Source: an uncultured delta proteobacterium (GTDB lineage Bacteria > Desulfobacterota > Desulfovibrionia > Desulfovibrionales > Desulfovibrionaceae). Taken from it: a DNA stretch of 64,000 bases. Of the stretch, positions 20,049 to 48,100 are shown piece after piece. Location of the stretch: contig CAILNX010000029.1 in the NCBI GenBank assembly GCA_903835685.1, positions 62,001 to 126,000 of the forward strand, written 5' to 3'. Numbering within the stretch: position 1 is the first letter of the stretch; the number at the start of each line of letters is the position of its first letter. The notes below the pieces were generated by a model that saw only the letters and a program-made list of their open reading frames with translations, was not told the origin of the DNA and did not search any database. Position numbers and translations under genes: made by a program.

Positions 20049-20825
20049 GTGCGCCATCTCTCCCTTCCCGCAGCCCTAACCCTGACCCTGATTCTCGGCT
20101 GCGCCCTCCCGGCCCAGGCCCATTTCGGCCTGGTCATCCCGGACTTAAACATCGTAACCAAGGACGGGGAGAAATCCCTGAACCTCAAATACCTCTTCTG
20201 GCACCCCATGGAGAACCAGGGCATGAACCTGGACAAGCCCAGGGTGGAGGTCTTTGTGGACGGGAAAAAGGAGGACGTCAGCGCCTCCCTCGCCGAAGGC
20301 AAGACCGGGGAGTTCGTGACCTGGGCCTCGCAGTACGCGGTGAAAAAGCCGGGCAATTACATTTTTCTCATGACCCCCCAGCCCTATTTCGAGAAGGCCG
20401 AGGACAAGTTCATCCAGCACTTGACCAAGACCGTGGTCGGGGCCCTGGGCGCCGAGGAGGGCTGGGACAGGCCCGTGGGCGCGAAAATGGAGATTGTGCC
20501 CTTGACCAGGCCTTACGGGCTCTATGCCCCGGGTTCCTTTACCGGCAAGGTCCTGTTCCAGGGCAAGCCCGTGGCCGGGGCTGGCTTGGAGATCGAATAC
20601 TTGAATCCTGACGGCGCGCTCAAAGCCCCCTCCGACCCCTACGTCACCCTGAAGGCCAAGGCCGATGCGGGCGGGGTGTTCACCTTCACCGCTCCCTGGG
20701 ACGGCTGGTGGGGGTTCGCGGCCTTGAAGGAAGACACGGTGAAGCTCAAGAAGGACGGCAAGGACAAGAAAGTCGAGGTCGGCGGCGTGATCTGGGTTTA
20801 TTTCCACCCGGCCCTCAAGAAATAA
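20049..20825 (+). CDS. nikK: DUF4198-type periplasmic component NikK of nickel ECF importer
   Basis: 258 residues. Signal peptide (hydrophobic core LPAALTLTLILGCALPAQA) with the mature protein starting HFGLVIPD, a histidine at the new N terminus as in NikK/NikL metal-handling proteins. The rest is a beta-rich DUF4198-like domain. Known NikK proteins help deliver Ni2+ to the membrane unit. GTG 20049 is chosen because AAGGAG lies five bases upstream and it gives a proper signal peptide; an upstream ATG (19983) does not. First gene of nikKMLQO. Confidence 0.82.
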   Translation: MRHLSLPAALTLTLILGCALPAQAHFGLVIPDLNIVTKDGEKSLNLKYLFWHPMENQGMNLDKPRVEVFVDGKKEDVSASLAEGKTGEFVTWASQYAVKKPGNYIFLMTPQPYFEKAEDKFIQHLTKTVVGALGAEEGWDRPVGAKMEIVPLTRPYGLYAPGSFTGKVLFQGKPVAGAGLEIEYLNPDGALKAPSDPYVTLKAKADAGGVFTFTAPWDGWWGFAALKEDTVKLKKDGKDKKVEVGGVIWVYFHPALKK

Positions 20826-23683: not shown

Positions 23684-26140
23684 TCAATACGCCTCTCCCT
23701 TCCACATCTCCGCCGAGAAACGCACGGCCTTGTTGCGGCCGGTCTCCTTGGCCCGGTACAGGGCCACGTCCGCGAATTTGATGACCTTGTAGAACTGGTC
23801 CCCGTCCGCCGGATACTCGGCCATGCCCAGGCTCAAGGTCTTGCGGATGCGCTGGCCGTCGGGCAGCACGAACTCATGGGCCTCCACGGCCCGGCGGATC
23901 TTGTCCGCCACTTCCTGGACGAAATTCTCCCGCACGTCGTGCAGCAGGATGAGGAACTCCTCCCCGCCGAAGCGCACGGCCAAATCGGCTTGGCGCACGG
24001 AGTTGGTCAGAATCCGGCCGATGTCTTTTAAGACCGCATCCCCGGCGATGTGCCCGTACACGTCGTTGACCTGCTTGAAGAAGTCCAGGTCGGCCATGAT
24101 GAAGCCCACCCTTTTTCCGTCCCGAAGGGCCGCAGCCTCGGCCTGGCGGAGGAATTCGTCCAGGAAGCGGCGGTTGTGCATTCCCGTCAGGGGATCGCGC
24201 AGGGACTGCTCCTGGGACAGGGCCAGGAGGTTCAAGGTGGTCAGCACCGGCGCGGTCTCGCCCAGGTATTTCTTGATGACCGAGATGGCCGGTCGGCGCT
24301 CCTCCCACTGGGACAGGGGGAAGACGAAGGAGAACACCCCGCCCACCCGGCCGCTCATGACCAGGGGCAGGCAGCAGCGCACCTCCTCCTGGTGGTTCAC
24401 ATGGAAATAGGGGCACAGGGCCGCGTTGGGATGGGAGATCACTTCCTCGCCCATGCGCTTGGCCCGGCACAGGTCCGTATTGTAGAAGACCTCGCTGCAC
24501 AGGCGGTGGTTGGTCCCCAGCTTGTTGAGGGCCACCACGAAATTGTTCTCCTGGGTCGGGACCTCCAGGATGAGGTATCGGCTCAGATTGAATTCACGGG
24601 TGAACACCCCGTCGAGCATGTCGTAGACCTCGAATTTGTTGAACACCCCTTGCAGGTCATGGGTGAAGGAGGTCAGGCCCGCGACGTTTTCCAGAAGCTC
24701 CCCGATGGTGTTCAAGGCCGGGGCGGAGTCCTGGCTGGCCGGGGAATGCAGGACCCCGGAGATGACGTGGTTCACCTGGCTGGTGAAGCCGCGCCAGATG
24801 CGCATCATGGTGTTCAGCGCGTTGCGCATCTCCACCAGTTCGTCCCCGTGGCGCAGGGCGTAGACCGGGCAGTAGCCGCATTTCCGGTATTTTTTCAGAT
24901 AGATGCACGTGTTGCGATAGAGGGGGGAAATGGCCTCGGACCCGGCCTCCAGGTAGCAGATGAGGGAGGGGTTCTGGTGTACCGGGCAGGCCGTGTTTCC
25001 GCACTGGAGCATGTCCAGGCAGTGCACCGGGTCGGTCTCGAAGCGCTGGGTGAAGTCGCCCTCATTGGTGGCCACCAGAATGCGGCCCAGGCGGTGCAGG
25101 AACATCTTGATGCGCTTGACGTTGATGTAGATCACGAACCAGACGAACATGGCCCCGCACAAAAAGGCCAGAGAGAAGATGGCCGACTCGGTCAAGGTGG
25201 ATTTCAGCAGGGGCCAGGAGTCAAAGGACAGGAGCAGCCCCCCGATGGGCTGGTTCATGAAATCGTCGAGCTTGATGAACTGGAAGTAGGCCGACCCGAT
25301 CTGGGTGGGAATGATCCCGGTGTCCAGGACCGTGGTCAGGGCCTGATCGTCCACGGTCCCCCGGGCGCGGCCCACCATCCATTTCCCGTGCACGGAGCGC
25401 ACCTGGTTCGGGTTGAGGATCGGGACGAAACGGCTTTCCAGCAGGAAGACCACCCCGAACTGGGCCGGAATCTGGGTCATTTGCAGAATGTTCTCGATGG
25501 AAGTGGCCGCCTCCACGGTGCCCAGGTGCTGGTCGCCGTCCACGATGGGCACGATGGCCCGGATGGCCGCGCCCCCCGGCCCCACCTCAAGGCCCTTGAA
25601 GGGAGCCCTGTACTTGTTGGCCATGACCACCATGGGTCGGGTGTTGGTCAGGTCCGCTCCGGTGTCCTCCAGGTCCCAGGTGCGCAAAAAGGAAGTGGCC
25701 GGAGGCAGGTGGAAATGGAAATACAGGGAGCTTCGGCCGGTGGTGGTCTTCAAATGCTCCAGATAGGGCAGGATGAAGGCCTTGAGCCCCTCGCGGTCCT
25801 GGCGGCGCATGGACTCCACTACCTCGCGCATGGCCGCCAAGGGAGCGGAGTCCCCAAACTGCCCGTCAACCTCGCCGGTGATCTTGTCCGTCATCCAGCT
25901 CTGGAACACGGACAGGCGGCTGTGTACGGACTCCCGCAGGATGAGGGTCTGATAGTAGTAGAAAATCCAGCCCAGGATCAGGCACCCCCCGCAGAGCAGA
26001 ATGCCTGTGCTGACCAGGAACCGGGCGGAAAGGCTCCACTGGGTGGGGGTGAGCAGACGCGAGAGCCGCAACTTCCAGGGAAGCCGATCGATGGGCGCGG
26101 TCCCTGACTTGATCTTGGGAAGGGGAGGGGGAGTGGGCAA
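23684..26140 (-). CDS. Membrane diguanylate cyclase with Cache-like sensor and Cys-rich segment
   Basis: About 818 residues. Two membrane helices flank a ~280-residue periplasmic Cache-like domain. Next comes a HAMP-like stretch and a Cys-rich segment (HCLDMLQCGNTACPVHQ, then CIYLKKYRKCGYCPVY), as seen in other deltaproteobacterial sensors. A second Cys-containing GAF-like region is followed by a C-terminal GGDEF domain. The active site is GGEEF, and RQAD five residues before it is an intact c-di-GMP inhibitory site. It should make c-di-GMP. TTG 26140 has AAGGA nine bases upstream; a TTG at 26167 would add nine residues. Confidence 0.87.
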   Translation of the reverse strand: MPTPPPLPKIKSGTAPIDRLPWKLRLSRLLTPTQWSLSARFLVSTGILLCGGCLILGWIFYYYQTLILRESVHSRLSVFQSWMTDKITGEVDGQFGDSAPLAAMREVVESMRRQDREGLKAFILPYLEHLKTTTGRSSLYFHFHLPPATSFLRTWDLEDTGADLTNTRPMVVMANKYRAPFKGLEVGPGGAAIRAIVPIVDGDQHLGTVEAATSIENILQMTQIPAQFGVVFLLESRFVPILNPNQVRSVHGKWMVGRARGTVDDQALTTVLDTGIIPTQIGSAYFQFIKLDDFMNQPIGGLLLSFDSWPLLKSTLTESAIFSLAFLCGAMFVWFVIYINVKRIKMFLHRLGRILVATNEGDFTQRFETDPVHCLDMLQCGNTACPVHQNPSLICYLEAGSEAISPLYRNTCIYLKKYRKCGYCPVYALRHGDELVEMRNALNTMMRIWRGFTSQVNHVISGVLHSPASQDSAPALNTIGELLENVAGLTSFTHDLQGVFNKFEVYDMLDGVFTREFNLSRYLILEVPTQENNFVVALNKLGTNHRLCSEVFYNTDLCRAKRMGEEVISHPNAALCPYFHVNHQEEVRCCLPLVMSGRVGGVFSFVFPLSQWEERRPAISVIKKYLGETAPVLTTLNLLALSQEQSLRDPLTGMHNRRFLDEFLRQAEAAALRDGKRVGFIMADLDFFKQVNDVYGHIAGDAVLKDIGRILTNSVRQADLAVRFGGEEFLILLHDVRENFVQEVADKIRRAVEAHEFVLPDGQRIRKTLSLGMAEYPADGDQFYKVIKFADVALYRAKETGRNKAVRFSAEMWKGEAY

Positions 26141-26328
26141 GATTTCGGTTCCTTGATGCCCTGGCAATCGACCGGGCGGCTTAGAGGGAAACCTCGGGCT
26201 GCGCCGAATATCCTAAAAAGGAAAAATCCCCACCAAAAACACGGATCGCCCCCAGGTGAAATCCCGGGCCAAAGCCAGGGGCGTGTACTTGGCTGTAACA
26301 TCAACCGTTTGATTTTAGAGGCCTAATA

Positions 26329-26357
26329 ATGATGCACGGCAGGGGGGGGATTGTCAA
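26329..26357 (-). promoter_or_regulatory. Candidate promoter with C8 spacer tract for the diguanylate cyclase
   Basis: On the minus strand a perfect TTGACA (26357-26352) is followed 17 bases later by CATCAT (26334-26329). The spacer contains eight consecutive C (26349-26342). A 13-base palindrome GTCAATAATTGAC (26353-26365) overlaps the -35. The rest of the 26168-26472 gap shows no gene and only a weak GC hairpin. Confidence 0.45.
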
Positions 26358-26472
26358 TTATTGACTCAGACCAATGATGATTATTTGTGCAAATTTGTCG
26401 TTGCCCGGGGAAAGGAAAAAGGGGCCGGGCCATGTCGGCCGCAACCCCTGATGCGGGGGAGTCCGCTGTCCG

Positions 26473-26501
26473 AAAAAAAAGCCCCGGCGCAGGGCCGGGG
26501 C
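26473..26501 (-). terminator. Rho-independent terminator after the SufB-like gene
   Basis: GCCCCGG and CCGGGGC arms (26481-26501) with a seven-base loop. Read on the minus strand they are followed by eight T residues. It lies 32 bases past the sufB-like stop. Confidence 0.9.
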
Positions 26502-26532: not shown

Positions 26533-27693
26533 CTAGAACATATCCTTCTCCGACTCGGAGATGGTCTTCTCGATGGCCGCGTGCAGCTTGTCCGGCAGGC
26601 CCATGATGTCCACGTTCAAAAAACCGCGCACGATGGTGGAGGTGGCCTCGTCCTCGTCCTGGCCCCGAGCCATCAGGTACTCGATCTCCCGGCGGGCGAT
26701 CTTGCCCACGGCCGCCTCGTGGGACAGCTCCACGCCCTCCACCCGGCCGTCCAGCTCGGGAATGGCGTGGATGCGGCCCCCGCCCAGGATGAGGCCCTTG
26801 CACTCCAGGTGCCCCTTGGCTGGTGCGTAATTGGCCTGGATGTGGCCCCGGGCGATGATGGTCCCGCCCGTGGTGATGGTCTTGGAGATGATCTCGCCCC
26901 GGGTGTCCGGCGCGTCCATGATGATGCGGCTGCCCGTGTCCACGTAGGACCCCTTGGGGGCTACCAGCACGGAGTTGAATCTGGCCCTGGCCCCGGGTCC
27001 GGCCAGGGTGATGGTCGGGTAGGACTGGAGATATTTCACCTGCTTGAGCAGGATGTAGTTGTTCTGGAACACGCCCCCGGCCTCGACGATCCCGCCGGTG
27101 CGCGGCACCACGTTCATGTGCTCGCCCCAGTTGTGGATCATGGAGAAGGTCAGCTTGCCACCCTTTTTCACGAAGAATTCCGACACGCCCACGTGCACGG
27201 CCTCGGACTGTTCGTTGGCCACGGCGCAGCCCGTGAGGATGTGCACCTCGGCCCCTTCCTCCACGATGACCACGTTGTGCACACTCTGCCCGGCCTTCTG
27301 CCCCTTGATGAACAGGCAGGACTGCACCGGGGTGGCGATCTTGGCCCCGGCCGCCACCTTGATGAAATATCCGCCCTGAAGGTGTTCGTTGGCCGTGCGG
27401 GTGTACTCGTCCTTGTCCGGGTCCACCAGGGTCCAGAAATGCCCGGGCAGGCCGTCGTACTTGGTCAGGGCGTCCTTGATGTCCAGGATCTCCACGGCCT
27501 CGTGCCGGGAGCGGCAATGCACGTTGCCGTGGTCCATGTGTAAAAAGGACCCGGCCCGGGACCCGGCCTCGTCCACATCCACCCCGGACATGATCAGGCG
27601 CTCCTTGTCCGCGCCGCTGATGGTGGACAGATCATCGATCCGGGCGTGACTGATGCCTTCAAAGGCGAACTGGTTTAGTTCAAAGGGTTTCAT
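26533..27693 (-). CDS. SufB/D-family Fe-S scaffold of a minimal two-gene SUF-type system
   Basis: 386 residues; forms the scaffold on which Fe-S clusters are built with the SufC ATPase. The C-terminal core keeps both residues expected of an active SufB: Cys in GHLECKGLILGG and Glu in the LSHEAAVGKI helix. The central beta-helix repeats are evident from residue ~90. It is shorter than classical SufB (~480) and no SufD, SufS, SufU or SufE is adjacent, so this is a SufB-SufC pair of the minimal SMS type. Length and context are seen; the classification is inferred. It lies 19 bases after sufC. Confidence 0.86.
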   Translation of the reverse strand: MKPFELNQFAFEGISHARIDDLSTISGADKERLIMSGVDVDEAGSRAGSFLHMDHGNVHCRSRHEAVEILDIKDALTKYDGLPGHFWTLVDPDKDEYTRTANEHLQGGYFIKVAAGAKIATPVQSCLFIKGQKAGQSVHNVVIVEEGAEVHILTGCAVANEQSEAVHVGVSEFFVKKGGKLTFSMIHNWGEHMNVVPRTGGIVEAGGVFQNNYILLKQVKYLQSYPTITLAGPGARARFNSVLVAPKGSYVDTGSRIIMDAPDTRGEIISKTITTGGTIIARGHIQANYAPAKGHLECKGLILGGGRIHAIPELDGRVEGVELSHEAAVGKIARREIEYLMARGQDEDEATSTIVRGFLNVDIMGLPDKLHAAIEKTISESEKDMF

Positions 27694-47610: not shown

Positions 47611-48100
47611 CCTCCTGACCGAGGCCAGCATTCTGGCCGAACGGGGCGTGGAGGTGGTCCAGTCCTCCCGGGGGGGGGACATCACCTGCCATTATCCCGG
47701 GCAGTTGGTGGCCTACCCCATTTTCCGCATCGAGCGCAGGCCCGGCGGGCTCAAATGCTTTTTCCGCGATCTGGAGGAGGCGGTCATCGCCACCGTGGCC
47801 CGGTTCGGGGTCTCGGCCGGACGCGTCGAAGGTCGCACCGGGGTATGGGTGGGGAACCGCAAGATCTGCGCCATGGGCCTGGCCGTGCGGCGCTGGGTGA
47901 CCTGGCACGGGCTGTCCCTCAACGTTGGCGCGGACTTGGGGCTTTTTTCCAACATCACGGCCTGCGGCCTGGCCGACGCCCGGGTCACCTCCCTGGTCCT
48001 GGAGACCGGGGATCACACCATCAACATCCCAAGGGTCAAAGAGGTTTTTGTTGTTGAATTCCGAAAAATCCTTGCGCCTGCCGCCCTGGTTGAGGGTTAG
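47441..48100 (+). CDS. lipB: Octanoyltransferase LipB
   Basis: 219 residues; moves octanoate from acyl carrier protein to lipoyl domains. LVEHPAVVTLGRKGG, SSRGGDITCHYPGQLVAYP, NRKICAMGLAVRRWVTWHGLSLNV (Lys) and ITACGLADARVTSL (Cys) form the catalytic set. ATG 47441 fits the family, and no later start would avoid the overlap with the upstream gene. A seven-G run lies in the SSRGGD codons. Confidence 0.93.
   Translation: METRRLNVVDLGLLRYEEARIIQENRVEQVRDGADETLFLVEHPAVVTLGRKGGLDNLLTEASILAERGVEVVQSSRGGDITCHYPGQLVAYPIFRIERRPGGLKCFFRDLEEAVIATVARFGVSAGRVEGRTGVWVGNRKICAMGLAVRRWVTWHGLSLNVGADLGLFSNITACGLADARVTSLVLETGDHTINIPRVKEVFVVEFRKILAPAALVEG

Follow-up and report, generated by a model that had tools for sequence, protein, structure and literature searches.

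In Neisseria, several genes for surface proteins are switched by G or C homopolymers in their promoters. The poly-C tract of fetA lies between the -10 and -35 elements and spans C10 to C14 (in the excerpted text of PMC5320596), and the opc tract is given as C11 to C12 in the part of PMC3447861 consulted. That same part reports that in the opc parental strain the tract was unchanged among the sequenced colonies, and the available portion of PMC5084427 states that tract stability falls with length. The composite tract of porA includes G6 to G8 (PMC5320596, excerpt); by analogy, this exception may keep alive the idea of a switch at a tract length of eight.

Here we analyze a candidate of this kind in an uncultured delta proteobacterium, located in a stretch of 64,000 nucleotides (hereafter the window). 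An earlier note had proposed that eight C residues in the spacer of a diguanylate cyclase promoter may vary in length by slipped-strand events. Among the matches listed for titles on Desulfovibrio phase variation, and among those listed for titles on homopolymeric phase variation of diguanylate cyclases, such a case was absent.

Results

Between 26540 and 26120, read on the minus strand, lie in order the end of a SufB/D gene, a terminator, a gap of about 310 bases and the cyclase. The SufB/D-core Fe-S assembly gene (26533-27693, minus strand) lies upstream of the gap, and the suf genes end at an intrinsic terminator (26473-26501, minus strand) with 8 G-C pairs followed by T8, so that the cyclase probably needs a promoter of its own. 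The cyclase (23684-26140, minus strand) is 818 aa long, with a dCache_3 sensor at residues 101-304 and a GGDEF domain at residues 647-804; its start was put by eye at the TTG at 26140 because AAGGAAC lies just 5′ of it.

The promoter-like site lies downstream of the suf terminator, about 190 nt 5′ of the cyclase. Both its sequence and the promoter scan gave a -35 hexamer TTGACA (26352-26357, minus strand), and the scan gave a -10-like CATCAT (26329-26334, minus strand). The 17-nt spacer between them, ATCCCCCCCCTGCCGTG on the minus strand, includes the C8 tract (26342-26349, minus strand; G8 on the plus strand). Measured against a sigma-70 promoter, with a -35 and a TATAAT-like -10 spaced by 16-18 nt, the two hexamers match at 6/6 and 4/6 positions, respectively. 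The elements described in the earlier note, namely a perfect TTGACA, a CATCAT 17 bases away, eight C between them and a 13-base palindrome overlapping the -35, are thus all present.

The palindrome, GTCAATTATTGAC (26353-26365), is perfect and is a candidate repressor operator. It was the sole match in the window even when 2 mismatches were allowed (0.22 expected). Downstream of the -10 lies a gapped palindrome, ATCAA-N4-TTGAT (26300-26313), also the sole match in the window (0.42 expected), which may be a second operator. A third small dyad, ATTTG-TG-CAAAT (26383-26394), was noticed by eye in the cyclase upstream region. Together, the three dyads hint at sites for a regulator.

To the promoter scan, the region yielded 2 sites versus 0.2 in shuffles. 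The site scored 10; among 1000 stretches of 340 nt simulated under a Markov model, 3 attained this value. In the source genome, TTGACA-N16-18-TANNNT occurred at 54 sites versus 8 for the reversed pattern, and is a true promoter pattern there. The looser TTGACA-N16-18-NANNNT gave 3 matches versus 1.42 expected over the whole window, which is not significant. Overall, the site moderately exceeds chance as a promoter. Alternatively, transcription of the cyclase could begin elsewhere in the gap of roughly 310 nt, or depend on an alternative sigma factor, and the promoter-like site would then be a product of chance. The weak -10, CATCAT, and lower-scoring alternative sites in the gap at 26401 and 26407 favor such a start, which we nevertheless regard as improbable, since the runner-up sites in the gap scored 7.5 versus 10. 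The core of sigma-54 promoters is GG-N10-GC; it was not seen in the gap, which counts against this alternative too, and a sigma-54 promoter was rejected.

Two further candidates in the gap were also rejected. Conservation of the gap DNA was not supported, as the 288 family genomes gave nothing above chance-level matches besides the window's own. When the gap was searched in 59 genomes, the only matches besides its own gap fell at query bases 29-71 or portions of them, a segment that, judged by position, corresponds to the suf terminator. The possibility of an RNA element was dismissed because all Rfam matches were sub-threshold and centred on the terminator.

G/C runs of at least 8 occurred twice in the window, compared with 27.4 ± 6.0 under a first-order Markov model; such runs are therefore depleted in the window, and the C8 tract is no excess over composition. 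The second run is a G9 (47670-47678) within a lipB-like reading frame (gene named by eye). The source genome had 151 positions of G8/C8, counted as overlapping positions rather than tracts, so that a G9 contributes two positions and a G16 contributes nine; G8/C8 tracts are ordinary in this genome. The G16 run (L281:3359-3374, or G000:C15:8857-8872) lies about 210 bases upstream of the frame of a PAS-type sensor histidine kinase (L281:629-3148, minus strand), followed by a response regulator (both named by eye). This run is a much better candidate for slippage than the C8, or possibly an assembly artefact.

Two more TTGACA sites with a C8 starting within 9 bases were present in the source genome. 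Upstream of trxA-trxB (thioredoxin and thioredoxin reductase), the sequence is TTGACA-CAA-C8-GGGAAC-TAGTAT, with TAGTAT at 17 nt; upstream of hisD (histidinol dehydrogenase), TTGACA-TTTGG-C8 is followed by a poor -10 (2/6). Across the family, TTGACA-N0-9-C7 occurred in 103 of 288 genomes and the G7 version in 109 of 288, so no strand preference of the tract was seen between these counts. The C7 pattern had 174 matches in the 288 genomes versus 77 for its reversal (hand-summed from a table, with overlapping matches taken separately).

We then asked which genes follow such tracts. Places with C7 or longer were represented by a subset of 71 (30 search-returned loci, 40 picked by hand from the places listed by that search and the window's own site), and G7 places by the 30 loci that the G7 search returned. 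A tRNA gene lay on the same strand within 250 bases downstream at 8 of the 71 places, with tracts of C7-C9 in relatives, and at 8 of the 30 G7 places, five of the latter being one tRNA-Val locus in one genus. None of 300 control stretches had one; these were drawn from loci around cyclase relatives and do not sample genomes at random. rpoZ, hisS and ettA were found downstream of other tract-bearing places. The mean -10 match over the 71 places was 2.07 at 17 nt and 1.99 at 15, and matches of at least 4/6 numbered 8 at 17 nt, 11 at 15 and 12 at 29. The 71 places together thus lacked a sharp -10 peak at 17 nt and many of them lay within long stop-free frames, indicating that only some are promoters. 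The longest C run among them was a C13 following TTGACA (L166, genome G076).

Where tract-bearing sites could be compared between orthologous or nearly orthologous places, most held their spacing, with a single exception of one base. In six genomes of one genus, both C7 and total length were kept. A tRNA-Lys pair had C7 versus C9, yet the spacing was 17 nt in both; likewise, a pair from the sister genus (g3) had C7 versus C8 at the same total length. In another pair (g22), C8 and total length were both kept. G7 was kept at the tRNA-Val locus in five genomes, and the tract was G8 in both G144 and G145. In g54, G8 was kept in four genomes, and L266 differed by one base from L265, L270 and L271; this difference was one A fewer adjoining the tract, outside it, and was the sole spacing change among the sets. 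The L181/L212 pair lies within a reading frame (by eye) and has no bearing on promoters.

The cyclase orthologues examined are distant (38-51% identical), and none had a run of at least 7 upstream; the tract is thus not kept at the same gene in these relatives, and its length at the cyclase is known from one genome, the sole one of its genus among those listed. No run of at least 6 was present in the 320 bases upstream in L036, L037, L039, L006, L011, L014 or L009 (L038 is identical in sequence to L006), whereas L007 had a G6 and L013 a G6 and a C6; for L010 and the sister-genus pair, the upstream regions were inspected only visually. In both members of that pair (G002 and G163), a suf gene again precedes the cyclase, and their aligned upstream regions share TTGTCA-N17-CTATAG without a long run (promoter assigned by eye). 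In L036, L037 and L039, TTGACA is followed after 17 nt by a C-A dinucleotide (by eye).

Discussion

The sequence analysis very probably points to an ordinary sigma-70-type promoter for the diguanylate cyclase, with the C8 as spacer filler rather than a length-varying switch. RNA polymerase would recognize TTGACA and CATCAT, separated by a GC-rich 17-nt spacer containing the C8, and transcription would start from this predicted promoter; a repressor could possibly block it by binding the palindrome that overlaps the -35. Selection would act on the total spacing, with the C8 itself serving as filler. The promoter part of the earlier note stands, because the site had the top score in the gap after the suf terminator and matches a genome-enriched pattern.

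The slipped-strand proposal did not fare as well. The C8 would gain or lose one base, giving spacings of 16, 17 or 18, and c-di-GMP would vary among sister cells. The tract itself speaks for this, resembling known cases such as fetA in position and base, and the spacing is exactly 17 at C8, so that a gain or loss would be expected to weaken the promoter. Slippage of a C8 may possibly occur in any cell. A contingency promoter is nonetheless highly unlikely, since the C8 is shorter than the fetA and opc tracts (as given in the excerpts cited above), is usual for this genome, was not seen upstream of the examined orthologues of the cyclase and recurs with TTGACA at trxA and hisD, with similar tracts at tRNA genes, while mutS and mutL were found in the source genome.

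The recurrence at other genes bears on how the tract is read. Similar runs in household-gene promoters of this genome and its relatives suggest that the C8 in the cyclase promoter is most likely ordinary and not a random on/off device; random switching would make little sense at thioredoxin, histidine-synthesis and tRNA genes. As runs of 7-9 G or C behind a -35 are also found at genes for tRNAs, thioredoxin and histidine synthesis in GC-rich Desulfovibrionaceae-type genomes, such a run is by itself no sign of a contingency locus. The result is mainly cautionary for calling contingency loci from G/C runs. If the C8 did slip with sufficient frequency, a membrane-bound diguanylate cyclase would vary from cell to cell in a sulfate-reducer-like bacterium, yielding heritable diversity in c-di-GMP and hence in attachment versus motility.

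Better places to seek phase variation are the G16 of the source genome and a G11 in a relative. The latter (L272; G121:C126, about 20283-20303, minus strand) lies between a perfect TTGACA and a perfect TATAAT 15 nt apart, and the promoter-like site precedes a gene for an HdeA/HdeB-family protein. From its sequence, this arrangement is as would be expected for a real contingency promoter.

The cyclase site resembles the Neisseria fetA, porA and opc promoters in having a G/C homopolymer in the promoter, in fetA's case also between the -35 and -10. It differs in length, with C8 against the C10-C14 of fetA and C11-C12 of opc in the excerpted reports (the composite porA tracts, however, include G6-G8), and in its gene, a sensor cyclase rather than a surface protein. 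Its likeness to sigma-70 (RpoD) promoters lies in TTGACA, the 17-nt spacing and the place after a terminator and before a gene; it departs from them in a -10 matching at only 4/6 and in the C8 within the spacer, as at trxA.
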